From: Brachyspira murdochii DSM 12563
GTDB taxonomy: Bacteria > Spirochaetota > Brachyspiria > Brachyspirales > Brachyspiraceae
DNA: 64,000 bases
Direction of reading: 5' to 3'
NCBI RefSeq assembly: GCF_000092845.1
Contig: NC_014150.1
Span: forward strand, 496,001-560,000
Position 1 is the stretch's first letter. Every line of letters starts with the position of its first letter. A model generated the notes under the pieces. The model had not been told where the DNA came from and searched no databases. It was given only the letters and a program-made list of their open reading frames with translations. The position numbers and the translations under genes are program-made. Of the stretch, positions 10,030-53,930 are shown one piece after another.

Positions 10030-10055
10030 ATAAAAGATAATTAAGAGATTATAAT

Positions 10056-11965: not shown

Positions 11966-11993
11966 TTGTAATTAATACTAAATATAGTATAAT
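11966..11993 (+). promoter_or_regulatory. Separate promoter for the second binding protein
   Basis: TTGTAA (11966-11971) and a perfect TATAAT (11988-11993) with 16-base spacing lie upstream of the second receptor gene, so it can be transcribed independently of the transporter genes. Confidence 0.55.
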
Positions 11994-12001
11994 ATCAAGT
12001 G

Positions 12002-12016
12002 CTGATATTATATCAG
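12002..12016 (+). promoter_or_regulatory. Palindromic operator-like site at the predicted transcription start
   Basis: CTGATATTATATCAG is a 7-1-7 inverted repeat placed just after the TATAAT box. Its position would allow a repressor to block initiation; the ROK regulator encoded downstream is a candidate binder, by inference only. Confidence 0.4.
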
Positions 12017-12053
12017 TAAAATAATTTTTATTAAAAATAAAGGATATGTAATT

Positions 12054-13058: not shown

Positions 13059-13084
13059 TAAAATTATTTAATATTAAAATATTA

Positions 13085-13116
13085 AGCGGTGTGTATTCTT
13101 TATGCATCGCTTTTTT
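13085..13116 (+). terminator. Rho-independent terminator after the receptor genes
   Basis: AGCGGTGTGT (13085-13094) pairs with ATGCATCGCT (13102-13111) over ten positions when G-U pairs are allowed, and six T residues follow. It separates the transporter genes from the ROK gene. Confidence 0.8.
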
Positions 13117-13150
13117 AATAATTATTAAATAGATAAAAAATAGATAACAG

Positions 13151-14344: not shown

Positions 14345-15262
14345 AATAATATTAATTTGAGGATTAAAAGCATAATGCTGCTCTATTTTTTTTCTAGTAT
14401 CCTCTATTAAATTAATGACATCTTCTGCTTTGCTAGGCTCTTCATTTTCATTATACAAATGCTCATTAATAATATAATTAGGAAATCTCTTATGCCATCT
14501 CATAGCACCAAATTTCATATCAAGTCCTCCTACACGCTCAACCATTTCATAAGCCTTAATATCATTAGAATCTTCAAAAACAGGACCTATATTTGCCTCC
14601 ATTGGAGCAACCGATCCTCTTATATATCTAAACCAATCTATTCTGTTATCAATACTTTCAGGAAGATCGTTATCTAATTTAAATACCGCTGACAATATTA
14701 CTATAAATTTTCTATCTTCTTCAGTTAAATTCAAATATTCATCTTTACTTAGTTCTAATACGGAGCAGTCTTTTTTATTAAAAATTTTTACTGATTCTAA
14801 AAATTTCAATAATGATATCCCAAAAGATTCTAATTTATCATAAATAGCAGCCCCTATTCTAGTATTAACTAAAGCCACAAACTCTAACCCAGATAAATTT
14901 CTAATTCTAGCCTCATGAGAAAGCCTTTCTAAAATAGCAGAACTATTAGATTTTAAAACCCCATCTTCTAAAAACTCAAAAAACTCAAACTCCCCTTCTA
15001 ACGATACTATTATTCCATTATATCCTTTATCAGAAACAATTACTTTGCTAGTATCTCCAATAACAAAATAATCTATTTTTTTATTATATAGAAAATTTGC
15101 TATATCCAAAAAATCCTGTATCTTTTTTACAGCTATATACAAATCAATATTTCCGCCTACATTAAAACTACAGCATTTACTAAAAGGGTGATTTTTATAA
15201 TATTCTATATTTTTTTCTTCGAGAAAACTCTCAACTATCTTGTAATTGTCTTGCATAGTCAT
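14333..15262 (-). CDS. murB: MurB homologue lacking catalytic residues
   Basis: The 309-aa protein aligns along its length with UDP-N-acetylenolpyruvoylglucosamine reductase (FAD and NADPH dependent, cytoplasmic, second committed step of murein precursor synthesis). Recognisable parts are SFNVGGNIDLYI, LSGLEFVALVNTRIGAAIY and the C-terminal FGAMRWHKRFPNYIIN. Key sites differ: the GGGSN FAD loop reads GDTSK (69-73), the catalytic Ser of GSxFKNP is Pro227 (GPVFED), the final Glu of LEPEV is Gln302 (NPQI), and the YRDSIFK arginine motif is not recognisable. It overlaps murC by 32 bases with GAGGG before the ATG, so it is translated with the mur operon. A non-catalytic or altered role is inferred. 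Confidence 0.75.
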   Translation of the reverse strand: MTMQDNYKIVESFLEEKNIEYYKNHPFSKCCSFNVGGNIDLYIAVKKIQDFLDIANFLYNKKIDYFVIGDTSKVIVSDKGYNGIIVSLEGEFEFFEFLEDGVLKSNSSAILERLSHEARIRNLSGLEFVALVNTRIGAAIYDKLESFGISLLKFLESVKIFNKKDCSVLELSKDEYLNLTEEDRKFIVILSAVFKLDNDLPESIDNRIDWFRYIRGSVAPMEANIGPVFEDSNDIKAYEMVERVGGLDMKFGAMRWHKRFPNYIINEHLYNENEEPSKAEDVINLIEDTRKKIEQHYAFNPQINIILLS

Positions 15263-16619
15263 TGCTAACCCTCACTATATTACCAGCTCCTAACGTTATA
15301 ATTATATCCCCATCTTTTTTTATACTCTCTAACACCGGCAATACTTCATCTATATTTTTTATATATCTTACATTCTTATTTTGTTTTTTTACTATATCAC
15401 ATATAATCTCGCCATTAACCCCAGCAATAGGAGCTTCCCCTGCCGCATAAATATCAGTAATAATCACCTCATCGGCATCATTAAAAGCATACTCAAAATC
15501 ATTTAAAAGAAGCTCAGTTCTGCTGTATCTGTGCGGCTGAAATACCGCTATTATACGTCTGCTTTTATAAGCATTTCTCACAGATGACAATGTAGCTTTT
15601 ATCTCTGTTGGGTGATGGGCATAATCATCAAATAATGTTATCTCTTTATCATACAGTTTGTTTAATCTTCTTCCTACACCTTCAAAAGTTTTAAGTCCTT
15701 CTTTTATATTAGGAACATCTATACCTAAATGATAAGCAACACCTATAGAAGCTAAAGAGTTAAGTATATTATGCTCTCCTATTAATGGAACAGAAAACTC
15801 TCCCAAGCACTCTTTATTATGATACGCTATAAAATATGTAATAGGAGCTTCTACTCTAATAGAATCTTTATCAACATGAAAATCATATGATTTATCAAAA
15901 CCATATGAATAATATTTTTTATTGGCACTTTTAGATAAATCCCTTACAACATCATTTTCAAAGCATAAAAAGGAACAGCCGTAAAAAGGAACTTTATTAA
16001 TAAACTCTAAAAAAGCAACTCTTAAAGCCTCAACATTTCCATAGTAATCCAAATGATCATTATCTATATTAGTTACAACATTAATAACAGGAGAAAGCCT
16101 CAAAAAACTTCCATCACTTTCATCAGCCTCGCATACCATATACTCACTGCTAAGATCATTACAGACAGCATTGCTTTTCAAATTAAAATGATTTCCTCCT
16201 ATAATACAAACAGGATTAAGTCCAGCATGCATCATTATCTGACTTATAAGCGAAGTTGTAGTAGTTTTGCCATGAGAGCCTGATATTGCTATACCATACC
16301 TTAAACGCATAAGCTCTGCAAGCATCTCCCCTCTTGATATAACAGTTATCTTTTTTGCCTTTGCGGCAACTATCTCTTCATTTGCAGGGCTTATAGCTGA
16401 TGAAGTTACAACTGCTGTAATATCATCTTCAATATTGGAAGCATGATGACCATAATATACCTTTATCCCAGATTTTTCTAAAGATTCAGTTTTTGCTGTT
16501 TTTGCTAAATCACTTCCAGTTATAGTAAAACCAATAGCATTTAATACACTTGCTATTGCACTCATTCCTATTCCGCCTATTCCTATAAAATGTATCTTTT
16601 CTTTTCTTTTTGTAAACAT
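15231..16619 (-). CDS. murC: UDP-N-acetylmuramate-L-alanine ligase
   Basis: MurC adds L-alanine to UDP-MurNAc using ATP in the cytoplasm. The 462-aa protein starts with IHFIGIGGIGMSAIA (nucleotide-sugar Rossmann-like loop), has the ATP loop GSHGKTTTT near residue 120, the central EADESDGSFL and DNDHLDYYG motifs and the C-terminal DDYAHHPTEI. I chose the ATG at 16619; a TTG 12 bases further upstream abuts the purine-rich AAGGA and is less likely. It lies 56 bases after murG and overlaps the murB-like gene. Confidence 0.95.
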   Translation of the reverse strand: MFTKRKEKIHFIGIGGIGMSAIASVLNAIGFTITGSDLAKTAKTESLEKSGIKVYYGHHASNIEDDITAVVTSSAISPANEEIVAAKAKKITVISRGEMLAELMRLRYGIAISGSHGKTTTTSLISQIMMHAGLNPVCIIGGNHFNLKSNAVCNDLSSEYMVCEADESDGSFLRLSPVINVVTNIDNDHLDYYGNVEALRVAFLEFINKVPFYGCSFLCFENDVVRDLSKSANKKYYSYGFDKSYDFHVDKDSIRVEAPITYFIAYHNKECLGEFSVPLIGEHNILNSLASIGVAYHLGIDVPNIKEGLKTFEGVGRRLNKLYDKEITLFDDYAHHPTEIKATLSSVRNAYKSRRIIAVFQPHRYSRTELLLNDFEYAFNDADEVIITDIYAAGEAPIAGVNGEIICDIVKKQNKNVRYIKNIDEVLPVLESIKKDGDIIITLGAGNIVRVSNDYARQLQDS

Positions 16620-16675
16620 TATGTAACTCAATCCTTTAATAATAAATCAAACACTTCAATCATAAAATTAATCAA

Positions 16676-17749
16676 TTATTTATTTTTTAAATTACTCATT
16701 ATATCATCTACTATTGAAGACACAGCTCTGGAACTCCAGCTGCTTCTAATTTTTTCACGCATAGCTTTTAATCTCTCATCATTATTTAAATTATTTACAA
16801 CAACACTTTCTAACTTTTCTCTATTTAAATCTGATTCCTCTATTAAATAAGCCATATCCTTATCAAGCAGATCTAAAGCATTAAAATACTGATGATTATC
16901 TGTGGCATATGGAAAAGGAATAAGTAAAGAAGGCACATTAACCGCCAATATCTCGCTTATGGAGCTACTTCCAGCCCTAGATATAACAAAATCAGCTGCA
17001 TGAAGTAAAGTTGCCATATCTTTATAATAGCTATGCACAAAAACATTATCAAATTTGGCATTATTCACTTTTTCTATTATTCCAGAAGCCCATTTAGGTC
17101 CGGCAAGCCATTCTATACGTACATTTTTTACTTTGTCTTTAATATCTTTTATACATTCAAAAAATAATTCATTTAATTTTAATGCTCCCTGAGAACCACC
17201 CATAACAACTAACAGTTTATCATCATTAGATAGTTTCATAACTGTTCTAGCACCCTCTCTATTAACTACAAAAAAGTCATTTCTTACAGGGTTTCCAAAA
17301 ACTTTTCCTTTAGGCATAAACTCTAAAGTCTTTGAAAAAGTTAAATAAGTTTGTTTTGCATATTTATAAAATATTCTATTAACCTTACCGGGTATAGAGT
17401 TTTGCTCGCATAAAAATATTGGTATATTATTCCATTTGGCTGCATACAGCATAGGAAGAGATACAAAGCCTCCCATTCCTATTATACAGTCAGGTTTATG
17501 CCTCTTAATAATTTTTGAAGACTTCATCAAAGCAGGTATAAATCTTAATATAAAGAGTATTTTTTTCCAAAAATTTCCGGGAGGATTAATATTAATAGTA
17601 TTAAAATCATAATTATGAGGTATAAGATGATAATCTTTCTGAGCAACTACAAGTCTAGGTTTATGTCCCTGATGTTTTACATAATCATATATTGAAATAG
17701 CAGGCGTTATATGTCCTGCTGTACCTCCTCCGCATAAAATAATATTCAT
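16676..17749 (-). CDS. murG: Undecaprenyl-PP-MurNAc-pentapeptide GlcNAc transferase
   Basis: MurG makes lipid II from lipid I at the inner face of the membrane. The 357-aa GT28 protein begins with the glycine loop CGGGTAGHITPA, has the acceptor-domain motif IGMGGFVSLP, the second loop MGGSQGA, and the donor-site RAGSSSISE with PFPYATDNHQ. Length matches the family. Its ATG overlaps the ftsW stop in an ATGA arrangement, indicating translational coupling within the division/cell-wall operon. Confidence 0.95.
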   Translation of the reverse strand: MNIILCGGGTAGHITPAISIYDYVKHQGHKPRLVVAQKDYHLIPHNYDFNTININPPGNFWKKILFILRFIPALMKSSKIIKRHKPDCIIGMGGFVSLPMLYAAKWNNIPIFLCEQNSIPGKVNRIFYKYAKQTYLTFSKTLEFMPKGKVFGNPVRNDFFVVNREGARTVMKLSNDDKLLVVMGGSQGALKLNELFFECIKDIKDKVKNVRIEWLAGPKWASGIIEKVNNAKFDNVFVHSYYKDMATLLHAADFVISRAGSSSISEILAVNVPSLLIPFPYATDNHQYFNALDLLDKDMAYLIEESDLNREKLESVVVNNLNNDERLKAMREKIRSSWSSRAVSSIVDDIMSNLKNK

Positions 17750-39592: not shown

Positions 39593-40321
39593 CTAAAACA
39601 TTCCGCCGTCAACACTAATAACCTGTTTAGTTATGTAATTAGCTTCTTCAGAGAGTAAAAAGTTTACAGCATTTGCCACATCCTCAGGTTTTCCTATTCT
39701 TTTTAAGGCTATCATATTTTTGGCATGCTCTATTATATCATCATTTATCATATCGCTTTCTATTATACCGGGAGCAATACAGTTTACAGTAATATTTCTT
39801 TTACCCAACTCTATAGCCAAAGACTTTACAGCCCCTATAAGCCCAGCCTTAGAAGCAGCATAATTAACCTGCCCCCTATTGCCTATTATACCAGAAACAG
39901 AGCTTATCGCTATAATACGCCCTCCTTTTTTTAACCTTATCATAGGCATAATTATGGGACTGACTATATTATAAAAACTTTTCAAATTAACATCTATAAC
40001 TTTATCCCATTCCTCTGGAGTCATAGCTGGAAAAGCATTGTCCATAGTTATACCAGATGAAAGCACTGCTCCATAATATGCCCCATTCTCTTCTATATCT
40101 TTTAGCAAAATATTTTTAGTCTCTTCTATGTTTGAAACATCTATTTTTAAAAATCTTATATTAACATCATAATCTTTTGAATAAGTTTTTATATCATCTA
40201 TAAAAGAATCATTTTTATTATAGCACATAATAGTGTCATAACCGCTTGATATAATCTTTTTTGATATTGCAAGCCCTATACTTCCAGATGCCCCTGTTAC
40301 TAAAATAGATTTATTTTTCAT
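39593..40321 (-). CDS. fabG: 3-oxoacyl-ACP reductase of the APE-like operon
   Basis: A 242-aa short-chain dehydrogenase (FabG/ApeQ-like) that reduces beta-ketoacyl-ACP with NADPH. The cofactor loop is TGASGSIG (9-16), the catalytic set is Ser in ISSVSG, Tyr and Lys in VNYAASKAG, and it ends ITKQVISVDGGMF. I prefer the ATG at 40321 to a GTG four codons earlier. It is the last gene of the operon, 32 bases after the dehydratase gene. Confidence 0.88.
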   Translation of the reverse strand: MKNKSILVTGASGSIGLAISKKIISSGYDTIMCYNKNDSFIDDIKTYSKDYDVNIRFLKIDVSNIEETKNILLKDIEENGAYYGAVLSSGITMDNAFPAMTPEEWDKVIDVNLKSFYNIVSPIIMPMIRLKKGGRIIAISSVSGIIGNRGQVNYAASKAGLIGAVKSLAIELGKRNITVNCIAPGIIESDMINDDIIEHAKNMIALKRIGKPEDVANAVNFLLSEEANYITKQVISVDGGMF

Positions 40322-40353
40322 AATTGTATACACTCTTTATTAAAATAAAAAAA

Positions 40354-40851
40354 CTAAAATACAAAATTTTCACTAGAACTCTCCATTACCATTATAGAAC
40401 AGTCCATAACTTTTTTTACATTATAACTATTAATTATATTTTTATATTCTTCTATACTTTTTATATCATCATTGCAAATAATTACATCACCATTATAATA
40501 CGCAATACTTCCATCTTTTAAAGTCTCTTTTACAAATATATAAACTTTATTTTCTGATTTAACTTTATCAATATAGCAATCAGCTTTTTTAATATTTAAA
40601 AGAAAACCTATTCTATTATTATCAGCACTATTTTCTAAAGCACCATTATAAGCTGCAGCAGTCTGTGCCGCATATTCAGTAAAAATATAAGAATCAATAC
40701 CTTCATTTTCTGAATTATCATAAAAAATATTGTCTTTTTTTATTTGAGAAAAAGTAAGTATTTCATTATCATCAAAATTAATATCAATAATACCGTCTAT
40801 CAAAAGCATTCTGCCTTTATGAGGTATATTTAATTTATATTTATTTTCCAT
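40354..40851 (-). CDS. Hotdog 3-hydroxyacyl-ACP dehydratase-like protein (ApeP-like)
   Basis: The 165-aa protein starts YKLNIPHKGRMLLIDGI, the pattern of APE-type dehydratases with catalytic His11 in PHKGRMLLID, and has a helix with EYAAQTAAAYNG supplying the acidic residue. It would dehydrate 3-hydroxyacyl-ACP to the enoyl form, giving conjugated double bonds when no enoyl reductase acts. The ATG at 40851 has no clear ribosome binding site; a TTG at 40893 overlapping the ketosynthase gene is the alternative. Translational coupling with the ketosynthase is likely. Confidence 0.75.
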   Translation of the reverse strand: MENKYKLNIPHKGRMLLIDGIIDINFDDNEILTFSQIKKDNIFYDNSENEGIDSYIFTEYAAQTAAAYNGALENSADNNRIGFLLNIKKADCYIDKVKSENKVYIFVKETLKDGSIAYYNGDVIICNDDIKSIEEYKNIINSYNVKKVMDCSIMVMESSSENFVF

Positions 40852-40882
40852 AACAATAAAACAATAACAAATTAATAATAAA

Positions 40883-42055
40883 TTATTTTCCAACTATCAA
40901 ACAAGTATTGCTTCCGCCAAAACCGAATGACACACTCATACAATTTTCAAGTCTGTCAGACACAACTTTTCCATTAACTAATTTTATTCTTTCTAATGTA
41001 TCATCATATACTCCGTCATATAAATGAGGCGGAAGTATTTTTTCTTTATTCATAGATGAAAGAGTAATAAAACAAACTCCAAGCTCCATAGCACCAGCAG
41101 CTCCAACAGTATGACCGAATGATGTTTTGCTAGAACTGCACCATATATCTGAAGCATTTACTCTGTTTAATGTGGTACTCTCCATTTTATCATTTATCAA
41201 AGTACCTGTGCCATGAAGATTAATATAATCTATGTTATTAATATTCATAGATGCATGTTTTAAAGAATCATTAATACATTTACTTGTAGTGCTTCCGTCT
41301 ATATCAGGGCTTGTCATGTGATGAGAGTCTGAATTACTATTGTATCCTTTAAGGTATATAGCATCTTTAGAATCAATAAAATTCTCTCTTGCCAAAACTG
41401 TAAAAGCTGCACCCTCTCCTAAATTTATTCCGCTTCTGTTTTTTGAAAAAGAATTGGTTTTATTATAGGAAACAACTTCAAGAGAATCAAAACCATAAAC
41501 AACAGTATCAGTTACAACATCAGCACCGCCCACTATAGCTACGTCTATTATATTGCTTCTTATAAGCTCGTCAGCAGCTATTACAGCATTCGCACTCGAT
41601 GTACATGCCGTAGATATAGTAAAAGAAGGTCCTGAAACATCAAAGTATTTCTGCAAAAAATCACAGCATATATTAAGGCTCTGCATAACTAATATTCTTC
41701 TCTCATCAGAAACAGAACCTTTCAGTATATAATCTTTAGTTTCATCGCTTCCATTTTCACATGTACCCACTATAACAGATATTCTATTTTTTTTATATCT
41801 TTTTTTTGCTTCATCTATAATAGGCTTTAATTGATTTACAGCATGCAAGGCCATTTTGTTTATTTTGTTATTATAAGGATCTTCAAGCTTAAAATTAAAA
41901 AAGTCATTATCTATTTTACCAAGAAAAAATTTTTTATTATAATCATTATTTTCTTTTAAGCCGTATTCTCCTTTTATGAAATACTTATTATATAGCTCTT
42001 CTTTATCTCTAGCCAAACAATTAATAATGCCGAAATCAAGTAGTATATTACTCAT
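40883..42055 (-). CDS. Beta-ketoacyl-ACP synthase of the APE-like operon
   Basis: A 390-aa FabF/ApeO-ApeR-like condensing enzyme. The active-site set is complete: Cys151 in TACTSSANA, His281 in LHGTGT, Lys310 and His315 in KTSFGHTVGAAG. It extends the acyl chain from malonyl-ACP. Sequence at the start is divergent from housekeeping FabF, which suits a specialised pathway. GAGGTGA precedes the ATG. The partner is likely the CLF-like protein encoded at 48503-49210. Confidence 0.88.
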   Translation of the reverse strand: MSNILLDFGIINCLARDKEELYNKYFIKGEYGLKENNDYNKKFFLGKIDNDFFNFKLEDPYNNKINKMALHAVNQLKPIIDEAKKRYKKNRISVIVGTCENGSDETKDYILKGSVSDERRILVMQSLNICCDFLQKYFDVSGPSFTISTACTSSANAVIAADELIRSNIIDVAIVGGADVVTDTVVYGFDSLEVVSYNKTNSFSKNRSGINLGEGAAFTVLARENFIDSKDAIYLKGYNSNSDSHHMTSPDIDGSTTSKCINDSLKHASMNINNIDYINLHGTGTLINDKMESTTLNRVNASDIWCSSSKTSFGHTVGAAGAMELGVCFITLSSMNKEKILPPHLYDGVYDDTLERIKLVNGKVVSDRLENCMSVSFGFGGSNTCLIVGK

Positions 42056-42137
42056 GTTATCACCTCAAATGTCAAGTATATAATTCTATAAAAAAAATGT
42101 CAAATAGTTCATATATACATAAAATATACTATTTATA

Positions 42138-44417
42138 TTAAACTTTTTCTATTAATCTATTAAATTTAAATAATACAGGAGAAATTAAGAATGATGATAA
42201 AACTCCTATAAACAAAAATAAACCAAAAGATTTAACAGGTATAAAACTGCTGAATGCTAAAGTACCAAATGATAATACAGTTGTCATCATAGATAAAAAT
42301 ACTGCCAAAAATGTAATCTCCTTATCAGCAGCACTGTTTGAGAAAAATATTGCATAGTCTATAGATATTCCTATAGAAAGTATCAAAGCAAATATAGAAA
42401 ATATATTTATATTAATACCAAATATAGAGTGTATAGATAAATTTATCAAAACAGACATTAATTGAACTAATATTATAGCCGCTGCCTGTTTATTATTAAA
42501 AAATATAGACATAGCTATGAATATTAAAATATATGCTATCAAAGCCATTTTTACTGCTGTTTTTGCTGTGCTGTCTAATGCATCATTAATCTCTTCATTA
42601 AGATTAAAAACTTTTACATTATTATTTGTAATTTTTATCGTATTATTGGTATCATAATCGCTTGTAGCTATAATAAAATATTTATTATTATTTGTGGTTA
42701 TAATTTTTTTAAGCTCAGAAAAACTGTCTGATTCTATTATACTATTTATATCAAGCACATCATTTTTTATACTTTCAAACTCTGCTTTTATTTTATTAAA
42801 TGAACTTTCATCTAAATTAAGCTCTTTTATCTGTTCTCTTAAAAGAGGCATTAATTTCTCTTCTGTAAGTTTTATATTTTCTCTCTGCTTTTTTTCAGAA
42901 TATAATATTCTTGATATAGCATTATAATTATTAGTAAAATAACTTTCTATACTCTCTTCAGCCTCAAGTGCCTCTGAAAGAGTTTCTCCGCTTGATATTA
43001 TAATATTTTTTGCAAGCGAAGTATTTAATCTTTTATAAACTTCACTCTCACTTTCAAGAAGAAAATCTGGAGTATCATAAAGCTGATTTGCAGAAAAATT
43101 AACTTTTATTCTAGGTATAAATATTATAGAAAGTATAATAACTATTACAAAAATAATAGAAACAGTTTTTATATTTATTATTTTTATGTATTCATTTAAT
43201 ATATTTCTGCTTCCTAATAATACAGACTGTTTGATATTTCTTTTATCATTTTTAAATATAATAGGATATATTATATTTACAGTAAGAAAAGAACTTATAA
43301 GCCCAAATATAGAAAATAATGCTATCTGCTTTAATAATGTAAGCGAAGTTAAGAAAAGCGATAAATAACTTATTATGGTTGTCAGAAAACCTAAAAGCAT
43401 GCTAGGAAATATTTTTTTTAAAACTTCTTTTTTATCTTTTTCATTGTACCATTCTGTGATAAAATGTATTGAATGATCTATTGATATGCCTATCAAACTA
43501 GTTCCAAATACAAAAGTAAATATATGAATAGAATTAAAAAATACCGATGAATACAAAAATGCTGCAGCACCTGCTATAAATATAGTACACATTGAAATAA
43601 TATAAGGCTTTACAGATTTGAATATAAATATAAACATCATACATATAACTATAAGAGAGACTATAGATATAATTGTAATTTCTTTTTTAGCACTTTTCTG
43701 GCTATAATATGTATGAATAGGAACACCTGATATATATGTTTTTACATCATCACTTACTGACAAATCATTTAAAAAGACAGTAAGATTATTAAAAAAACTT
43801 TCACTGTCTATTTTTTTTGGCATATCTATATTGATAAGTATATTATATTTATTATTATAATTTACAAACTGAATGCCGTCTCTTGACTGAATATTATTTT
43901 CAGAAACTAAAATTTCATTTATTTTTGAATTAAGCACAAAAAAAGGATCATCTTCAATATTATCCGCTATAGGAATAAAAAAAGGAGAATAAAAGTTAAT
44001 AATAGAATTCTCTGCAACAATATAGGCTTCATCATTTAAAAGATAATCTCTTATCTCTTTTGAAAGAAGCTGATACTTATATTTAATCATTATATTTAAA
44101 ATATCATCATAATCTCTTGAATATAGATTAACTAAAACATTGCTGTCTAAGTTATTTATATATTCTTCTAATTTTAATGCACTATTTTTGGCATTATCAA
44201 AATTATCGCTTTCTATAAATATTTTAATACTGCTTGAGTTTTTTAAAAAGAAATCTTCCAAAGGCTTTTGAAAATCTTTGTCTTCCAAAAATTTAGGCGT
44301 TATGGACAAAAAATTAGTATCTATCTTTGCCGTTTTATCATATCTTGCTATAAATAAAATTAAAGCAGATAAATGAAAAAATATCCATAAAACTATTAGA
44401 AGTTTACTCCTCTTCAA
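42138..44417 (-). CDS. MMPL/RND-type lipid exporter
   Basis: A 759-aa membrane protein with two RND halves. Each has one helix, a large periplasmic domain (about 30-245 and 440-610) and a block of five helices. GTSLIGISIDHSIHFITEWY and ILSIGISIDYAIFF are the paired helix-4 motifs with the acidic proton-relay residues. The size and layout match MMPL-type exporters of APE clusters (ApeM), moving the lipid product across the inner membrane. The gene starts with TTG overlapping the LolA-like gene by 14 bases, with GAGGAG at ten bases' distance. Confidence 0.85.
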   Translation of the reverse strand: MKRSKLLIVLWIFFHLSALILFIARYDKTAKIDTNFLSITPKFLEDKDFQKPLEDFFLKNSSSIKIFIESDNFDNAKNSALKLEEYINNLDSNVLVNLYSRDYDDILNIMIKYKYQLLSKEIRDYLLNDEAYIVAENSIINFYSPFFIPIADNIEDDPFFVLNSKINEILVSENNIQSRDGIQFVNYNNKYNILINIDMPKKIDSESFFNNLTVFLNDLSVSDDVKTYISGVPIHTYYSQKSAKKEITIISIVSLIVICMMFIFIFKSVKPYIISMCTIFIAGAAAFLYSSVFFNSIHIFTFVFGTSLIGISIDHSIHFITEWYNEKDKKEVLKKIFPSMLLGFLTTIISYLSLFLTSLTLLKQIALFSIFGLISSFLTVNIIYPIIFKNDKRNIKQSVLLGSRNILNEYIKIINIKTVSIIFVIVIILSIIFIPRIKVNFSANQLYDTPDFLLESESEVYKRLNTSLAKNIIISSGETLSEALEAEESIESYFTNNYNAISRILYSEKKQRENIKLTEEKLMPLLREQIKELNLDESSFNKIKAEFESIKNDVLDINSIIESDSFSELKKIITTNNNKYFIIATSDYDTNNTIKITNNNVKVFNLNEEINDALDSTAKTAVKMALIAYILIFIAMSIFFNNKQAAAIILVQLMSVLINLSIHSIFGININIFSIFALILSIGISIDYAIFFSNSAADKEITFLAVFLSMMTTVLSFGTLAFSSFIPVKSFGLFLFIGVLSSFLISPVLFKFNRLIEKV

Positions 44418-44982
44418 AATATTTTATCTCCTCAGAAGTTAAAGTATTTGATTTGGATACAACTTTCATTATATACTCTGTGGTGCTGTTATTTGAAGAA
44501 TACATTTTTATCTTTTCTATATATCCATCTTTTGCAAAACTCACTTCTATTTTCTCTATTATCTTTTTTAACTCTTCAGTTTTAGGAGTATAAACTGTAG
44601 CATTATTTTCTTTACTTTGATTAAATGATTCTAATATAGTTTTTTCATCATATGTAAAAATTGATTTTATAATATTGGCTATTTGAGAAAACATAGCATT
44701 GCCTGAATCAGCCATAACTTTCTTTTTTCCATTAGGAAGTATCTGCACAACATTTTTTTCTCCCATAACAGTTATTGATTCTTTAGGCAATTTCGTAATC
44801 CAACATATACCGTATCCGCTAGCAACTATAAAATCTCCAGACGATTCAAAACTTCTTCCTTTCTGGCTTACTATTTGAGTATAAGTACCTTTTAATAGTT
44901 TTGCATTTTTATATTCATCTTTTACCTGTCCAAATAAGAGAGAAGAAAGAGATAATATCATTAATAAACAAAATTGTTTCAT
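44404..44982 (-). CDS. LolA-like outer-membrane lipoprotein carrier
   Basis: The 192-aa protein has a signal peptide (1-19, ending LLFG) and a LolA-type fold region: LLKGTYTQIVSQKGRSFESSGDFIVASGYGICWIT, where the Q/KG...SSG pattern is typical. It would carry a lipid or lipoprotein through the periplasm. LolA-like proteins next to an MMPL exporter are standard in APE clusters (ApeL). It is translationally coupled to the exporter gene. Confidence 0.75.
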   Translation of the reverse strand: MKQFCLLMILSLSSLLFGQVKDEYKNAKLLKGTYTQIVSQKGRSFESSGDFIVASGYGICWITKLPKESITVMGEKNVVQILPNGKKKVMADSGNAMFSQIANIIKSIFTYDEKTILESFNQSKENNATVYTPKTEELKKIIEKIEVSFAKDGYIEKIKMYSSNNSTTEYIMKVVSKSNTLTSEEIKYFEEE

Positions 44983-45063
44983 TTATTATTCCTAAATTAT
45001 TATTAGTATATATTATAATACAAAAAACAAACAATTTGTAAAAAAAATTTTATATGAGTAGTA

Positions 45064-45504
45064 TCAAAGTTTATTAAGTTTTTCTATTCTTTCAATAAAA
45101 TCTTTAGGGCTATTTAAAAAGCCTTTTCTAGTTTCTGAATCTATAGGCATCTGCAATGTGCTTGATTTTGATATAATTTTATCATTTTCATCATAAAAAG
45201 TATATTCTGTTTTCATACCATTTAAATATTCTGTAATTTCAGTATGTATTCTCACCCTTTGATTTAATTTTATAGAGTTGATATATTTTATTTCAAGTTT
45301 AACTATAGGCCACATAACACCTTTAGCTGTCATAATATCATAATCATAATCTATAATAGAAAGCATAGCCTCCCTAGCCTGCTCCATAAACTTTATATAA
45401 TTTCCATGCCAAACTACCCCCATAGGATCTAAATCATAAAAAGAAGGCTTTATATAATAATCATTTTCTAAATAAACTTTTTTATTATCAGTGCGTTTTT
45501 TCAT
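45064..45504 (-). CDS. Hotdog acyl-ACP/CoA thioesterase (YbgC/ApeK-like)
   Basis: The 146-aa protein has the 4-hydroxybenzoyl-CoA-thioesterase-type motif YDLDPMGVVWHGNYIKFMEQARE (23-45), with Asp26 as the catalytic acid. It releases an acyl chain from ACP or edits stalled chains. It begins three bases after the acyltransferase stop and is followed by the LolA-like gene. The homologous place in APE clusters is ApeK. Confidence 0.85.
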   Translation of the reverse strand: MKKRTDNKKVYLENDYYIKPSFYDLDPMGVVWHGNYIKFMEQAREAMLSIIDYDYDIMTAKGVMWPIVKLEIKYINSIKLNQRVRIHTEITEYLNGMKTEYTFYDENDKIISKSSTLQMPIDSETRKGFLNSPKDFIERIEKLNKL

Positions 45505-45507
45505 AAA

Positions 45508-46470
45508 TCAATTCCCCTTATACCAAAAATCATGAAAATTATACCATTGATAAGGATATTCTATAGCTTTTTTTTCAATAATAGAAGCAAATTCTTTTGT
45601 TAAATCTAAAATAGTTTCATTTTTTTTCTTTCTGTTTTTTAATTCTGTATTATCAAGTTTTATTTTAGAAGAATGTATATAAAAATTATATTTTTTTGAA
45701 AGTATTTTATCATTTTCTCTCAAAGCAAAGAAATAGTAAACAGGATATTTAAGCAAAATAGGTATAAGAAAAGCACCGCATGGAAAAGGAGCTTCTTCTC
45801 CTAAAAACTCTATATAATTTACTCTGTCAGTTTTATTAGATGTTCTGTCTCCTGCTATAGCAACTATCTCTCCATTATCAAGTTTATTTTCTATACTTAA
45901 AATAGTTTCAGGTCCTATATTTGAAGCATCAATAAAATCTATAAAAGAATTATTCTTACCCTCTCCAATCAATATATTAACATTTTTATTAACACGTGAA
46001 TCTATTATTATATTTATCTTATAATTTTTTATAGGGTTTCCCTCATTAATAACTGCAAGTGCCTTTAAAAGCTCAATGTTTCCAATATGCGAAAATAATA
46101 TTATCATTCCCTTTTTACTATTAAGCAAATCAATAACTTTTTTATACTCATCTTCGGTCTTTACTATAAGATCTTTTATAGGTATATCCCCATTCCAAGC
46201 TGCTATTTTTTCAGATACAGAAACAACAAATGAAAGTAAATGCCTATAAGAACAAATTAAGTTAGATTTTACTTTTTTATTATATTTAGACATTCTTTTA
46301 AGATATTCTCTTGAAGCCTTCATTCTGCTTTTAGAATAAAAGAAATAAAATATACTTACCGGAATAAGATATATTATAACAAAAGTTCTTCCAAGAAGTT
46401 TATAAACAAAAGCTGAAAATATAACTTTCCATCTTGTGCCTATTTCTTTTTCTTCGCTCCAATGACTCAT
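45508..46470 (-). CDS. LPLAT/HtrB-type acyltransferase
   Basis: A 320-aa membrane-associated acyltransferase. The start HWSEEKEIGTRW and the catalytic H-x4-E motif (His128-IGNI-Glu133 in LFSHIGNIELLK), plus GDRTSNKTDRVNYIEFLGEEAPFPCGAF, are typical of lipid A late acyltransferase-like enzymes in APE operons. It likely transfers the finished polyene or acyl chain to a lipid or glycan acceptor in the inner membrane. A hydrophobic helix lies near residues 27-45. Confidence 0.85.
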   Translation of the reverse strand: MSHWSEEKEIGTRWKVIFSAFVYKLLGRTFVIIYLIPVSIFYFFYSKSRMKASREYLKRMSKYNKKVKSNLICSYRHLLSFVVSVSEKIAAWNGDIPIKDLIVKTEDEYKKVIDLLNSKKGMIILFSHIGNIELLKALAVINEGNPIKNYKINIIIDSRVNKNVNILIGEGKNNSFIDFIDASNIGPETILSIENKLDNGEIVAIAGDRTSNKTDRVNYIEFLGEEAPFPCGAFLIPILLKYPVYYFFALRENDKILSKKYNFYIHSSKIKLDNTELKNRKKKNETILDLTKEFASIIEKKAIEYPYQWYNFHDFWYKGN

Positions 46471-46481
46471 AAGATGAACCT

Positions 46482-46826
46482 TTATTTTAAATAAATCTTA
46501 CCGTCAGAATATTTTTTATCTTCATCATACATCTTAAAAGAAAGCGTATTATTTAAATAATAACATTCTAATGTAATAATAGTATTTGGAAAAATCATAT
46601 TAACAAATTTCAATTTTAAAAGTTTATTTACAGAAAAATTTCTGCTGAAAATACTTTTATATATATCAAGAGCAATTTTAACCTGAGCTATAGCAGGCAA
46701 AAGTTTCAAGTTTTCAAAATGCCCGTCAAAATAAGGCATTCTCTCATCTATAAAAACTTTTACTCTAAACATATCAGAAGTTTTTTCTTCTATATTATAG
46801 TCTTTAAAACCTATATAATTATCCAA
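46482..46826 (-). CDS. Small hotdog dehydratase (ApeI/FabZ-like)
   Basis: The 114-aa protein carries the FabZ-type active-site segment PYFDGHFENLKLLPAIAQVKIALD with catalytic His36. It is shorter than FabZ (about 150 aa), as in ApeI. The start is TTG at 46826, supported by AAGGA seven bases upstream inside the ligase gene's end. With the ApeP-like protein it provides two dehydratases, as in known APE systems, where the two act together. Confidence 0.75.
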   Translation of the reverse strand: MDNYIGFKDYNIEEKTSDMFRVKVFIDERMPYFDGHFENLKLLPAIAQVKIALDIYKSIFSRNFSVNKLLKLKFVNMIFPNTIITLECYYLNNTLSFKMYDEDKKYSDGKIYLK

Positions 46827-46827
46827 A

Positions 46828-48174
46828 TTAATTTCCTTGCATTATAGAATCAAGTGCTTTTCTGTCTATTTTTCCAATCTCAGTTCTTGGAATACTATCT
46901 ACAAAATATATCTTTTTTGGAAGTACAACGGTTTCAAAATATCCTTTTAAATACTCTATAACATACTTTTTCATATGTTCAGCATTTCTGTCTCTATTAC
47001 TAAGAACTATAAAAGAAGCTATGTATTCCCTTTTATCAGACTTACAATATATAGTATAACTGTCTTTAAAATGCTTATCCATAAGTATTTGCCTGTCTAT
47101 CTGCTGAACACTGATTCTTTTTCCTTCAATTTTTACTATAGAATCCTCTCTTCCTATAAGCTCAAACTCATTTTCATTTTTCATATTAACTACATCGCCG
47201 ACATATATCCAAACATTTTCTCCAGTGTATCCGGAACAGCATTCTATACTTCCATGCTCATCAGTTTTTAAACTTACTACACTGAGTCTTGTCCATAAGT
47301 CATTTTCGCTTCTTCGTCTGTAAGCCATAGCCCCAGCCTCAGTGCTGCCGTAAATTTCTGTAACATCAACTCCAAATACATATTTAGCAAGATCATTAAC
47401 TTTTTTATCTAATAATCCTGTAGATGAAAATAAATGCCACTCTGCTCTTATTTTCAATGAAGATCTGTCTATTCTCTTTAAAAATGCCGGAGTTGTAACT
47501 ATAGTAATTTTTTCATATTCATAAAAATTATTAACTGTTTCTAAATAATTTATCCTATTATCCAAAAATCTAAGTTCAAGCATATAAGGAACTAGCACCG
47601 CAAAAACAAAACCATAACTATGATAATGAGGTACTGTATATATAAATATAGAATCTTTCATATCATCAGTAAATTGATTAACTATTTTTGAAGCCTCTGC
47701 CTCAAATTGCTTAAGAGTTTTTTCTATAAGTTTAGGGTATCCAGTAGATCCTGAGGTATAAAAATTGATGTTTATATTTTCATCTATAATAGTTTCTTTA
47801 AGTATATCAAACCATTTATCATTACATGCACTTTCAAATACTTCATCTAAATTTAGAGCTGATTTATAATTATCAGATATATAAACCATAGAACTGCCTA
47901 TTATACTTTCTACATATTTAGGACTATTATTATTTAATACATTTACTCTTTTTTTTAGAATAAATCCAGATACAGTTATTACAATAAATCTGTATGCATC
48001 TTCAATAAATATTGTGATAGTATCTTCTTTGTATTTAGAGATATACTCCAAAGCTCTTACTATATCGCAAATAAAGTCCTTATATTTTATAGAACCTGTA
48101 TTTTCCTTATGCAAAAGAAAAATATCTTCTGAATCTTTTAGTGAATAAAAATTTGTATTGCTTAATTTTCTCAT
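46828..48174 (-). CDS. ANL-superfamily acyl-activating enzyme (ApeH-like)
   Basis: A 448-aa AMP-forming ligase. The P-loop-like motif is FYTSGSTGYPKLIEK, followed by IYGSTEAGAMAYRR and the C-terminal lysine region TEIGKIDRKAL. It would activate a carboxylic acid with ATP and load it onto an ACP as the starter unit. In classical APE clusters this loads an aryl acid; no ammonia-lyase is present here to make it. It follows the ACP gene by 16 bases. Confidence 0.88.
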   Translation of the reverse strand: MRKLSNTNFYSLKDSEDIFLLHKENTGSIKYKDFICDIVRALEYISKYKEDTITIFIEDAYRFIVITVSGFILKKRVNVLNNNSPKYVESIIGSSMVYISDNYKSALNLDEVFESACNDKWFDILKETIIDENININFYTSGSTGYPKLIEKTLKQFEAEASKIVNQFTDDMKDSIFIYTVPHYHSYGFVFAVLVPYMLELRFLDNRINYLETVNNFYEYEKITIVTTPAFLKRIDRSSLKIRAEWHLFSSTGLLDKKVNDLAKYVFGVDVTEIYGSTEAGAMAYRRRSENDLWTRLSVVSLKTDEHGSIECCSGYTGENVWIYVGDVVNMKNENEFELIGREDSIVKIEGKRISVQQIDRQILMDKHFKDSYTIYCKSDKREYIASFIVLSNRDRNAEHMKKYVIEYLKGYFETVVLPKKIYFVDSIPRTEIGKIDRKALDSIMQGN

Positions 48175-48190
48175 AATATTTTTTTTAATT

Positions 48191-48451
48191 TTATTTATTA
48201 TCTGAATTTTCTCTTATATATTGTGCCAATGTTGCAACAGAATAGAAATGTTTTTTATTGTTTTCTTCTATATCAGAAAAACTTATATTAAATTTCTTTC
48301 TTATAGCAACGCCTATTTCCAAAGCATCTATAGAATCAAGTCCCAATTCATCACCGAATAAAGGAGCATCTGTATCTATATCATATATTGTCATATCTTC
48401 CAAATTAGCCGCCTCTATTACTATCTGTTTTATTTGTTCTTCAATAGTCAT
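48191..48451 (-). CDS. Acyl carrier protein
   Basis: An 86-aa ACP with the phosphopantetheine serine Ser40 in LGLDSIDALEIG. It is acidic at the N-terminal half and helical. It would carry the growing chain for the ketosynthase, reductase and dehydratases of the operon. Only one ACP gene is present, whereas many APE clusters have two. Confidence 0.9.
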   Translation of the reverse strand: MTIEEQIKQIVIEAANLEDMTIYDIDTDAPLFGDELGLDSIDALEIGVAIRKKFNISFSDIEENNKKHFYSVATLAQYIRENSDNK

Positions 48452-48502
48452 GTTATAATTCTCCTTAATAATAATTTTACATAAATCTATAGAATAATTA
48501 AG

Positions 48503-49210
48503 TTATTTTTTTGTTAATTCGATTTTTCCCAATTTTAAACTGGCATTGTTATCTGCTGATATAAATTTAATAAAATCAATAATAGAGTTTTCATCTTTTT
48601 TTATATCACTTTCAATGATATTCATATTTATATCAGCATCTTCCTTTGAGATAATGCATGAAAAGGCAAAAGAATAATTAACACATCTTGATATAGCTTC
48701 ATAGCTTTCAGGCAGTTTTTCATCCGCTATTATTATAAGTGCTTTACTATGTTCAGAATTATTTAAAAAAGAAACAGCCTGTATAAGTGCCGTATCTACA
48801 AAATTATCATAGCATGTAACAGCAACTGCTCTCTCATGATTTTTATAAAATATTGTAAGCTGTGCTGCTGCTGTATTAAAAACAGAAAAACTAAAAAGTG
48901 CAGGTGATACTTCATGTTCTGTTACTATTTTTTTAGATATATTATACTGCTGTTTTATCTCGCCATATTTAGATACAAAAAATATAGGCATTTGTTCATT
49001 TTCTTTAAGTATATTTTTTACGGATTCAAATGATAATTTAGTTATCTGACTAAGTCTTCTTTTCTGTGCTCTTGGTATAAAATCTAAATCCGGACTGGCT
49101 TCGCCATAAGTAATTTTTATATCGCTGTTTATATTATCCAATATAAATTTTTTATCTATATTAGGGGCAAAAAAATCCCAATCCAAAACCTTAAAACATA
49201 AATCCGACAT
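48503..49210 (-). CDS. Ketosynthase-N-like chain-length-factor protein (ApeC-like)
   Basis: The 235-aa protein resembles the N-terminal half of ketosynthases (Ketoacyl-synt_2 type): SPALFSFSVFNTAAAQLTIFYKN corresponds to the helix of chain length factors, and the active-site cysteine is absent. It probably pairs with the ketosynthase at 40883-42055 to set chain length. It is the first gene of the operon, with a promoter 40-66 bases upstream of the start. The fold assignment is by pattern only. Confidence 0.7.
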   Translation of the reverse strand: MSDLCFKVLDWDFFAPNIDKKFILDNINSDIKITYGEASPDLDFIPRAQKRRLSQITKLSFESVKNILKENEQMPIFFVSKYGEIKQQYNISKKIVTEHEVSPALFSFSVFNTAAAQLTIFYKNHERAVAVTCYDNFVDTALIQAVSFLNNSEHSKALIIIADEKLPESYEAISRCVNYSFAFSCIISKEDADINMNIIESDIKKDENSIIDFIKFISADNNASLKLGKIELTKK

Positions 49211-49248
49211 AAATTTCCTAAATAAAAATTATAATATTACTTTTACAA

Positions 49249-49276
49249 ATTATACTAAATTATGCTATAAAGTCAA
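49249..49276 (-). promoter_or_regulatory. Promoter of the APE-like operon
   Basis: On the minus strand TTGACT (49271-49276) and a perfect TATAAT (49249-49254) are 16 bases apart, about 40 bases before the first gene. Confidence 0.65.
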
Positions 49277-49597: not shown

Positions 49598-49987
49598 ATG
49601 ACAATAGCAGAAGTTAGTAAAAAAACAGAATTATCCGCTGACACTTTAAGGTATTATGAAAGAATAGGAATAATACCAGAAATAGAAAGAAGCGAAAGCG
49701 GAATAAGAAATTATACTGATTATGATTTGGGCTGGATAGAGTTTTCAAAATGTATGCGAAACTCTGGAATGTCTATAGAATCGATAATAGAATATATAAA
49801 GCTATACAATAAAGGTGATGCAACACTAGAAGCTAGAAAACAGCTTTTAGTAAGTCAGAGAGATGCTATGCAGGAAAAATTAAATGAACTTCAGGCTACT
49901 TTAGATAAACTAAATAAAAAAATAGAAAATTACGGACATCAAATGTCAGTACATGAAAAAGATATGCTCAAAAGTAAAAATAATTAA
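49598..49987 (+). CDS. MerR/AdhR-type electrophile-responsive regulator
   Basis: A 129-aa MerR-family activator. The winged HTH (1-70) begins TIAEVSKKTELSADTLRYYERIGIIPE, and residues 75-125 form the dimerising coiled coil. Cys52 in FSKCMRNSGMS matches the single conserved cysteine of the AdhR/NmlR subgroup, which senses aldehydes and other electrophiles. AAGGAGG precedes the ATG. The gene's own promoter and the promoter of the first aldo/keto reductase share an operator, so both are likely targets. Confidence 0.88.
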   Translation: MTIAEVSKKTELSADTLRYYERIGIIPEIERSESGIRNYTDYDLGWIEFSKCMRNSGMSIESIIEYIKLYNKGDATLEARKQLLVSQRDAMQEKLNELQATLDKLNKKIENYGHQMSVHEKDMLKSKNN

Positions 49988-49999
49988 GGACAAATATTT

Positions 50000-50470
50000 A
50001 TGAAAATAAAAAAATATTTTTTAAGTTTATTAATTTTTTATATTATGGCATCTATTGCCTGCAATTCAGTTTACGGAGATAATACAACTATGGAAAATTT
50101 AAATGTTTTAAATACTTCAGTTAATGTAAAAATAAAAGACAAAGAATATAAATTAAAACTATATGATAATCAAACAGCAAAAGATTTTTTAGCTCTTCTT
50201 CCTTTAACTGTTAATATGAATGATTTAAACAGCAATGAAAAATATTATAATTTAAGCAAAATCCTTACAACTAAAACTGAAAATATAGGAAGCATAAAAA
50301 CAGGTGATTTTTTACTATATGGTAATAACTGCATAGTATTATTTTATGAAAGTTTTAGAACTTCATACAGTTATACGAGACTTGGATATATAGAAAATAC
50401 AGAAAGTTTAAAAGAAACACTTGGAAGGGGAAGCGTTGAAATAACTTTTAGTGCCGCTAGTGAAAATTAA
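50000..50470 (+). CDS. Exported cyclophilin-like-fold protein
   Basis: The 156-aa protein has a hydrophobic leader with a possible lipobox (SIAC, Cys21) and a cyclophilin-like domain: VNVKIKDKEYKLKLYDNQTAKDFLALLPLTVNMNDL, then GDFLLYGNNCIVLFYESF and GRGSVEITF. This fold is common in MerR-controlled redox islands of anaerobes; its biochemical role is not established. AAGGA precedes the ATG, 12 bases after the MerR stop. Confidence 0.75.
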   Translation: MKIKKYFLSLLIFYIMASIACNSVYGDNTTMENLNVLNTSVNVKIKDKEYKLKLYDNQTAKDFLALLPLTVNMNDLNSNEKYYNLSKILTTKTENIGSIKTGDFLLYGNNCIVLFYESFRTSYSYTRLGYIENTESLKETLGRGSVEITFSAASEN

Positions 50471-50656: not shown

Positions 50657-51502
50657 ATGAAAACTGTAAAATTAAATAACGGACTTGAAATGCCTATATT
50701 AGGATTCGGAGTTTTTCAAATACCAGATTATGAAGAATGTAAAAAATCAGTATTAAATGCCATTGAAGCAGGATACAGATTGATAGATACTGCCGCAGCA
50801 TATTTTAATGAAAAAGCTGTGGGTGATGCTATAAAAGAAAGCGGTATTAATAGAAAAGAATTATTTATAACAACTAAATTATGGATAACAGATGCTGGAT
50901 ATGATAATGCTAAAAAGGCTTTTGAATTATCTATGGAAAAACTAGGTTTAGATTATTTGGATTTATATCTTATACATCAGCCTTTTGGTGATTATTATGG
51001 TTCTTGGAGAGCTATGGAAAATTTATATAGTGAAGGAAAAATTAAGTCTATAGGAGTGTGTAACTTTTATCCGGATAGATTATTAGATTTAGTTATGCAT
51101 AACAAAATAGCTCCTATGATTAATCAAATAGAAACTCACCCATTTTTTCAAAGAGAAGAAGATAATAAACTTATGAAAGAATACGGCATTCAAATAGAAT
51201 CTTGGGGACCTTTTGCTGAAGGAAGAAACAATATGTTTACTAATGAAACTATTACAAAAATAGCAAAAAAACATAATAAAACCACTGCTCAAGTTATATT
51301 AAATTGGCTCATAAAAAGAAATGTTGTTGTCATACCAAAAAGCGTTCATAAAGAAAGAATTATAGAAAACTTTAATGTGTTTGATTTTGAATTAGATGAT
51401 AGTGATATGAATGAAATATCAAAGCTAGATACAAAAAAGAGTTTATTTTTATCACATACTGATATTGAAACTGTAAAATATTTATGCAATTATAAAATTT
51501 AA
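50657..51502 (+). CDS. Aldo/keto reductase (AKR5/YtbE-like)
   Basis: A 281-aa NADPH-dependent oxidoreductase for aldehydes or ketones. The catalytic tetrad is visible: Asp in RLIDTAAAY, Tyr in AYFNEKAVG, Lys in TTKLW, His in LIHQPFG. The C-terminal coenzyme segment is [15 protein letters not shown]. It is cytoplasmic. Its promoter is the second MerR operator-promoter and its ribosome binding site comes from the hairpin repeat. Detoxification of reactive carbonyls is the likely role. Confidence 0.9.
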
Positions 51503-51558
51503 TAGTTTGTAATTTAATTATCAATTTCTTCTATAGAAATAAATAAGTATTATAATGC

Positions 51559-51574
51559 ACTATAGGTGTATAGT
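51559..51574 (+). promoter_or_regulatory. Inverted repeat before the second aldo/keto reductase
   Basis: ACTATAGGTGTATAGT has six-base arms around GGTG, about 30 bases before the start codon. It may be an operator; no -35/-10 pair can be assigned with confidence. Confidence 0.3.
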
Positions 51575-51604
51575 TTATAAATTAATTAATAAAAAGGATA
51601 AGTG

Positions 51605-52525
51605 ATGAAAAAAATATTTTTTAGCTTGTTATTTACTTTCATTTTAATTATCACAATATTTTCATTAAATAAAAAAGCAGAGGCAAATACTAATATGGAA
51701 AACAATAAAGTAGTTTTTAACTTCAATACAAAAACAGCAAAATTAAACAGCGGATACGAAATACCATTAAACGGCATAGGTACATATAGTCTATTAAATG
51801 ATGAATGCTACAATTCTGTACTTTTTGCTTTACAAAATGGTGTAAGATTAATTGATACAGCATATATATACAGAAATGAAGAAGAGGTTGGAAAAGCTGT
51901 AAAAGATTCAAAGATTGATAGAAAAGATATTTTTATTATTACAAAATTGTATCCTAATCAATACAGCGATGCAGAAAATGCTATAAATGAAGCATTAAAA
52001 AAATTAGATGTTGAATATATTGATATGATGCTTCTTCATCACCCAAGCGGAAACGATGTTGAAGCATACAAGGCTATGGAGAAAGCGGTAAAAGAAGGAA
52101 AGATTCGCTCTATTGGACTTTCTAATTGGTACATAAAAGAATTAAAAGAGTTTCTTCCTAAAATAAATATAATGCCTGCTTTAGTTCAAAATGAAATACA
52201 CCCATATTATCAGGATACTGATGTTATAGAGTATATTCAAAGTTTGGGTATAGCTGTTCAAGGCTGGTATCCTTTGGGCGGAAGAGGACATCAAAGAGAA
52301 CTTTTAAATGACAAAGTATTAAAAGATATTGCTCAAAAATATAAAAAGTCTGTCGCACAAATTATATTAAGATGGAATTTGCAAAGAGAAGTAATTGTAA
52401 TACCGGGCTCTAGCAATAGAGAGCATATAATAGAAAATACAGAGATATACGATTTTGAATTAAGTGATGATGACATGAAAAAAATAGCAGAATTAAACCG
52501 TGATGAAAAACATGATTGGTATTAA
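51605..52525 (+). CDS. Exported aldo/keto reductase
   Basis: A 306-aa AKR5-like enzyme with a hydrophobic N-terminal segment (about 4-22, IFFSLLFTFILIITIFSL), so it is anchored or exported, unusual for this NADPH-dependent family. The tetrad is intact (LIDTAYIYRNEEEVG, IITKLYP, LLHHPSG). The ATG at 51605, with AAGGAT upstream, is preferred to a GTG one codon earlier. It lies 102 bases after its cytoplasmic paralogue and lacks the hairpin leader repeat. How cofactor would be supplied outside the cytoplasm is unclear. Confidence 0.85.
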   Translation: MKKIFFSLLFTFILIITIFSLNKKAEANTNMENNKVVFNFNTKTAKLNSGYEIPLNGIGTYSLLNDECYNSVLFALQNGVRLIDTAYIYRNEEEVGKAVKDSKIDRKDIFIITKLYPNQYSDAENAINEALKKLDVEYIDMMLLHHPSGNDVEAYKAMEKAVKEGKIRSIGLSNWYIKELKEFLPKINIMPALVQNEIHPYYQDTDVIEYIQSLGIAVQGWYPLGGRGHQRELLNDKVLKDIAQKYKKSVAQIILRWNLQREVIVIPGSSNREHIIENTEIYDFELSDDDMKKIAELNRDEKHDWY

Positions 52526-52628
52526 AAATTAATTGAGACATGGTTTATATATAGAGTTTTTAAAGTACATATTTTTTAAGTGAATAAAAAATTATATAGT
52601 AAATTTGGTTAATATCTCATTTTAAATG

Positions 52629-53930
<1,302 letters not shown>

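Follow-up and report, generated by a model that had tools for sequence, protein, structure and literature searches.

The aryl-polyene (APE) lipids of Escherichia coli are yellow and antioxidant. Brachyspira is an intestinal genus that includes pig pathogens, and the closed genome of Brachyspira murdochii DSM 12563 (3,241,804 bases) carries an unbroken run of 11 genes on one strand which, starter identity aside, very probably represents a reduced APE-type cluster of type II polyketide genes for synthesis of a polyene lipid. The run extends from position 49210 to 39593 of the 64,000-nt stretch analysed (the window, to which coordinates refer unless stated otherwise), and all genes and promoter-like sites of the operon described here are on the minus strand.

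In Gram-negative bacteria, APEs give protection against oxidative stress and promote biofilm formation; the E. coli ape cluster has no ammonia-lyase and uses 4-hydroxybenzoate as starter, and deletion of apeF, apeD, apeJ or apeK leaves partial pigmentation (PMC8253772). The ketosynthase (KS) and chain length factor (CLF) pair ApeO-ApeC alone produces full-length polyene in vitro, the second ketosynthase, ApeR, merely raising output (PMC8358021). The ApeI/ApeP dehydratase heterodimer has a single active site, polyene ketoreductases (KRs) carry Leu where FabG carries Phe, and a KS-CLF system makes ishigamide, a polyene that has no aryl group (PMC8041823). Treponema ape clusters have already been called in surveys (PMC8863827, PMC8549736). 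In the open literature, with most subscription papers outside the search, no paper joins Brachyspira with aryl polyene or arylpolyene, and the Brachyspira hyodysenteriae genome paper makes no mention of polyketides. The kind of cluster is already known, and the distinctive point in Brachyspira is the reduced gene set, which lacks a known starter supply.

Correspondence with the E. coli ape cluster

When the 11 Brachyspira proteins are compared with the complete APE_Ec set of E. coli CFT073 (18 proteins, apeA-R, c1204-c1186; gene names from PMC8253772), each has a different ape gene product as its top match. The shared genes are on one strand and in identical order in both species, C-E-H-I-J (acyltransferase half)-K-L-M-O-P-Q. 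E-values are 9e-16 (C), 3e-27 (E), 8e-35 (H), 3e-12 (I), 1e-52 (J), 5e-31 (K), 2e-8 (L), 2e-32 (M), 5e-66 (O), 4e-7 (P) and 6e-85 (Q). Given 11 matches, this is one order in 11! (about 4e7), which is far beyond chance. The original prediction, made from the DNA alone, of an aryl-polyene-like operon is thus borne out by one-to-one collinear orthology, and the families that it named hold: CLF, acyl carrier protein (ACP), ANL ligase, ApeI-like hot-dog protein, LpxL-type acyltransferase, 4HBT thioesterase, LolA, MMPL/RND, KS and FabG-type KR.

The 11 same-strand open reading frames (ORFs), described there as having overlaps and short gaps, are all present at the minus-strand positions given for them. 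From C to Q, the intergenic distances are 51, 16, 1, 11, 3, 81, -14 (an overlap), 82, 31 and 32 bp, with start codons shifted for two genes (most likely ATG 40851 for P and ATG 40321 for Q). All 11 genes are under purifying selection, with median ratios of non-synonymous to synonymous substitution (dN/dS) of 0.08-0.36 at dS up to about 0.8.

Ketosynthase, chain length factor and ketoreductase

The apeC-like gene (48503..49210) encodes a half-size CLF of 235 aa with a single thiolase fold (PF13723, 1.1e-36). It matches only 7F28_A and 6QSP_B in the PDB, both of which are ApeC, and the ACP-docking Arg-Arg pair and the cavity Phe/Val are kept in every Brachyspira copy. Its predicted partner in an ApeO:ApeC heterodimer is the apeO-like KS (40883..42055), which is far closer to ApeO than to ApeR (1e-29) and carries Cys151, His281 and His315. 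Cys151 and His315 are present in every Brachyspira copy, and His281 in 20 of 22 rows of the alignment. The top PDB match of the KS is Xenorhabdus doucetiae ApeO (6QSP_A, 1.6e-60), ahead of any FabF, followed by 7F28_B.

The apeQ-like KR (39593..40321) is 48% identical to ApeQ, and its best PDB matches are the FabG-named reductases 6NRP and 7CAW. At the position of the Leu characteristic of polyene KRs (Leu185), Ile or Val is found in 21/21 Brachyspira copies, duplicates included, and the FabG of the same genome has Phe. APE enzymes of X. doucetiae and Acinetobacter baumannii (6QSP, 6QSR, 7F28 and 7CAW) are the best or sole structural-sequence relatives of the KS, CLF, dehydratases and KR, although identity is about 30% or lower outside the KR.

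Predicted composite dehydratase

Two dehydratases had been predicted. The first, apeI-like (46482..46826), is a hot-dog subunit with His36 as the predicted catalytic residue and matches 3ESI and 6QSR_A in the PDB. The second, apeP-like (40354..40851), barely registers against the PDB by sequence (6QSR_B, E 0.18) and is supported by its predicted fold. Its AlphaFold model (pLDDT 91, pTM 0.88) has as first Foldseek match the ApeP of the ApeI:P complex (6QSR chain B), with FabZ chains ranking so closely behind that the fold alone cannot separate ApeP from FabZ. The predicted catalytic Glu of P is E59 if numbered from ATG 40851 and E73 in the longer ORF.

The composite-site residues, His of I and Glu of P, are common to the Brachyspira pair and the X. 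doucetiae and A. baumannii enzymes. His36 of I is present in 100/100 sequences and the Glu of P in 60/60, counts in which some genomes are represented twice. Both residues are invariant, as would be expected for the single active site published for ApeI/ApeP (PMC8041823).

Ligase, acyl carrier protein, and predicted lipid attachment and export

A dedicated starter ligase and starter ACP are predicted from the best matches of two adjacent genes. The apeE-like ACP (48191..48451), with the serine in an LDSID motif, is 54% identical to ApeE. The apeH-like AMP-dependent (acyl-ACP) ligase (46828..48174) conserves the P-loop, YGSTE and GR.D motifs and a C-terminal Lys435. TIGR02372 (4-coumarate ligase) is the best NCBIfam model for both this ligase and E. 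coli ApeH, at 90 and 75 bits, respectively. As the E. coli control itself scores so low, low TIGR02372 scores are no argument against ape membership.

The LpxL-type acyltransferase (45508..46470; PF03279) aligns end to end with residues 248-549 of ApeJ only (31% identity) and retains an invariant His128 within HxxNxE/D; the GT2 (glycosyltransferase) half of ApeJ is absent. This protein, originally labelled an LPLAT, is therefore an orthologue of the C-terminal half of ApeJ and not an ApeD-type LPLAT. Orthologues of the ApeK-L-M export module follow: a 4HBT thioesterase (45064..45504; PF13279), a LolA-like periplasmic lipid/lipoprotein carrier with a signal-like N-terminus (44404..44982; PF03548, 2.5e-12), and an MMPL/RND exporter (42138..44417; PF03176, TIGR03480 and TIGR00921) that matches ApeM over 794 alignment columns. 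LolB-like ApeN is missing.

Relationship to fatty-acid synthesis and other systems

Housekeeping type II fatty-acid synthesis was considered as a role for the operon and rejected. The genome has a separate fabG-acp-fabF locus (3024406-3025475 of the chromosome, G000:C1; 3.02 Mb), and, as had been predicted, none of the operon's 11 genes encodes an enoyl reductase. One strong KS hit and one ACP besides those of the operon are found there, and the genome has one phosphopantetheinyl transferase.

The operon could instead be a lineage-specific system for fatty-acid or lipid A modification, in which an unusual saturated or hydroxylated chain is added to lipooligosaccharide by the LpxL-type enzyme. 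Membership of the acyltransferase in the lipid A acyltransferase family is consistent with this, as is the passing of a general FabG model by the KR. However, the CLF, the ApeO-type KS and the ApeI/ApeP dehydratases are components of polyene systems, the operon encodes no enoyl reductase, and the acyltransferase matches the ApeJ half along its full length, which together make such a role improbable. The original prediction had allowed that hidden Markov models (HMMs) might place these genes in ordinary fatty-acid or lipid A families; instead, ape structures rank ahead of fatty-acid ones among the matches of the KS, the CLF and the two dehydratases.

Two further candidates were discarded. In the flexirubin clusters of Bacteroidota, the FlxB-type reductase and LolA2 carrier models match Brachyspira proteins, but both fall under the curated cut-offs (222/340 bits for FlxB; 42/125 bits, 5e-11, for LolA2), and the resorcinol-forming genes are not among the 11. 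Identity of the operon ACP with the reputed Brachyspira hemolysin is not supported. The B. hyodysenteriae hemolysin ACP HlyA (BHWA1_02643) is numbered next to fabF BHWA1_02642 (PMC2650404), and the second ACP of B. murdochii sits with fabG and fabF, outside the operon.

Observations weighing against an APE-type cluster

Several observations count against assignment to the APE family. When the proteins are scored with HMMs of ape-type families, the ACP alone passes a curated cut-off (NF006617, 74.7 against 70 bits). The best NCBIfam model for the KS is NF006618, as for E. coli ApeO, at 324.6 bits against a cut-off of 407. Both dehydratase subunits are under Pfam cut-offs: ApeI just so (PF22818, 26.9 against 28.5 bits), while ApeP has no Pfam or NCBIfam hit, and the Pfam ApeP family catches E. 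coli ApeP but misses the Brachyspira protein. In addition, E. coli ApeI has an Asp on its own helix as second catalytic acid, and Brachyspira has Lys at this position. This substitution is harmless only if the I:P pair forms one composite active site.

The set is also incomplete. The ammonia-lyase, methyltransferase and second ACP are absent from the operon, as predicted. The list of missing genes has to be extended to A, D, G, N, R and the GT2 half of J, so that relative to APE_Ec the Brachyspira operon lacks A, B (methyltransferase), D (LPLAT), F (second ACP), G, the GT2 half of J, N (LolB-like) and R (second KS). Neither a second KS (ApeR) nor a second ACP (ApeF) is available elsewhere in the genome, which has two strong KS hits and two ACPs, with one KS and one ACP assigned to housekeeping. 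In A. baumannii, ApeR serves to raise output. A lone KS-CLF is nevertheless no bar to polyene formation, since ApeO-ApeC alone made polyene in vitro (PMC8358021).

The known supply of an aryl head group is missing too. Family searches, on which all genome-wide absences reported here rest, find no aromatic ammonia-lyase (PF00221) in B. murdochii, which answers the original suggestion to look for one elsewhere in the genome, or in any sampled Brachyspira. Chorismate lyase (UbiC, PF04345), which would make 4-hydroxybenzoate, is likewise absent from the B. murdochii genome. A query for an ApeB-type ring methyltransferase found none in the genome, in a search run with no positive control, and the gene is missing from all Brachyspira loci.

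The starter unit

The absence of an ammonia-lyase, which the original prediction counted among the classical APE genes, was correctly predicted. On its own this absence says little, because the E. coli cluster has none either and takes 4-hydroxybenzoate as its starter. UbiC is absent from all 393 sampled spirochaetes, many of which have fuller ape clusters, so Brachyspira is not alone in lacking the known supply genes. The genome encodes a chorismate synthase and hence has a route to aromatic precursors.

These observations bear on the possibility that the same machinery is primed by a non-aromatic starter (a short, medium or branched acyl group, or another acid), giving a non-aryl polyene lipid comparable with ishigamide. 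The lack of PF00221, UbiC and ApeB is in keeping with this. So are the pocket-side motifs of the ligase, which are unlike those of E. coli and Treponema, and the KS loop that holds the cavity-end His138 in A. baumannii ApeO, which is altered in Brachyspira; both differ from their E. coli counterparts. However, the ligase positions vary among treponemes too, and Treponema, too, lacks a conserved His at the KS position, so neither the KS cavity nor the ligase residues decide the starter. With the UbiC-free but fuller spirochaete clusters, the chorismate synthase gene and a ligase whose best model is still that of 4-coumarate ligase, as for E. coli ApeH, a non-aromatic starter seems rather unlikely, though well short of negligible.

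The starter could be a scavenged aryl acid, an aryl acid made by an unrecognised enzyme, or a non-aryl acid. Most likely is an aromatic acid that is either taken up from the gut or formed by an unrecognised route. The label 'aryl' depends on the starter unit and is provisional.

Proposed pathway

Orthology, gene order, catalytic residues, selection and genus-wide conservation are established here, and we infer every biochemical step from the named relatives. The ApeH-type ligase would activate a carboxylic acid and load it onto the dedicated ACP, and the ApeO:ApeC pair would extend this starter with malonyl units. As there is no ApeF, the malonyl extender is probably carried either by the housekeeping ACP or by the operon ACP itself. 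The ApeQ-type KR and the ApeI:ApeP dehydratase, with His from I and Glu from P, could then process each unit, and the chain would remain a conjugated polyene acid because the operon has no enoyl reductase. ApeK may aid release or proofreading, and the LpxL-type acyltransferase may join the chain to a lipid, which the RND/MMPL pump and the LolA carrier could move to the outer membrane. On paper, the Brachyspira gene set would be biochemically sufficient for a polyene chain, given that ApeO-ApeC alone makes polyene (PMC8358021) and that apeF, apeD, apeJ and apeK deletions leave some pigment (PMC8253772).

Distribution and history

CLF genes occur in 17 of the 26 sampled Brachyspira genomes (B. 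murdochii included) and in many treponemes, and in none of five genomes sampled from the rest of the family or order. The same 11 genes are found at about 15 distinct Brachyspira loci, e.g. in B. innocens, B. alvinipulli and B. hampsonii; B. innocens and Brachyspira sp. G79 are close relatives of B. murdochii. The chromosomal neighbours, ankyrin and SIS genes and MerR and cyclophilin-like genes, are mostly shared amongst the species. When a profile of the acyltransferase was searched against 84,980 genomes, the best 80 loci were all spirochaete-named, bar a few metagenome-assembled genomes named 'bacterium'.

In a tree of the ligase, acyltransferase and exporter (H+J+M), built by a quick method and containing long branches, Brachyspira forms one clade, whose sister, and closest relative in these three proteins, is a cluster found in two treponeme-family genomes (L045 and L046; genomes G353 and G368). 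Brachyspira and this pair are set apart from the other treponemes with 100 SH-aLRT support. Unlike Brachyspira, the sister clusters retain the methyltransferase (B), LPLAT (D), second ACP (F), GT2 and an aromatic ammonia-lyase (501.8 bits for PF00221); a gene for a phosphopantetheinyl transferase lies close by, and the ligase is fused to the ApeI dehydratase. Other treponeme clusters retain B, F, T and usually R. Because the sister keeps B, D, F, GT2 and the ammonia-lyase, the Brachyspira operon probably derives by reduction from a fuller cluster; gene loss is the simplest reading of the tree, which also allows separate gains.

Variant loci are found in both groups. In the B. catarrhinii lineage (L035 and L082) the operon is rearranged, with no K or Q gene at the locus. 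In L035 transcription of the KS and P genes diverges from that of the remaining ape genes, and the P reading frame continues into a membrane-protein sequence which, judged by eye, resembles a chromate transporter. In genome G098 a frameshift, through error or loss, divides the ACP gene (L042:5600-5950) into two readable halves, and the MMPL gene of the draft genome G083 has a run of N and frameshifts. Several treponeme loci (L047, L055, L066 and others) also have the ape ligase fused to the ApeI dehydratase, many with an additional ApeG-like N-terminal domain. A locus in another spirochaete family (L067, genome G097, 5990-16900) encodes a fused KS-CLF-like protein, a KR, a dehydratase, two ACPs and a LolA-like protein, and is possibly another polyene-type system.

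The operon might also be viewed as a decaying remnant whose product is no longer made. Seven ape genes are missing, nine of the 26 Brachyspira genomes have no CLF, single draft genomes show breaks in the ACP and MMPL genes, and neither K nor Q is at the locus in the B. catarrhinii lineage. Against this, purifying selection acts on every gene and the catalytic residues are intact across the genus. Decay thus has little to recommend it as an explanation, and a functional, reduced APE-type operon is preferred.

Promoters and neighbouring genes

A promoter-like site (TTGACT-16-TATAAT, 11/12 consensus matches) lies at 49249..49276, 39 bp ahead of the first gene, and coincides with the end of the feature as delimited in the original prediction. 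A second (42075..42103, TTGACA-17-TATACT, also 11/12) precedes the KS gene. One or two transcripts are therefore possible, but many such sites occur in this AT-rich DNA, and a consensus match alone is no evidence of function.

Upstream of the operon, at 49598-50470, are a divergent gene for a MerR-family regulator and one for a cyclophilin-like protein, which are kept there in most Brachyspira. The MerR-family gene is a possible candidate for regulation of the operon. Downstream of it are three consecutive aldo/keto-reductase-like genes, judged by eye (50657-53930). A tandem repeat lies at 52776-52941 (72-base unit, 2.3 copies, 97% identical), with an inverted repeat inside (CTGCTAAATTTATTTAGCAG).

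Implications for Brachyspira

A tentative extension of these findings is that Brachyspira has turned ape machinery to making a polyene lipid whose starter is new, either non-aryl or scavenged, and that a lone LpxL-type enzyme attaches it to the envelope without glycosyl transfer. If true, the product would be a spirochaete envelope lipid of a new chemical class. The operon also offers a natural experiment on the dispensability of ape genes, with the starter acid as the first committed question. More generally, the conserved, reduced ape operon predicts an uncharacterised polyene lipid in the outer membrane of Brachyspira.

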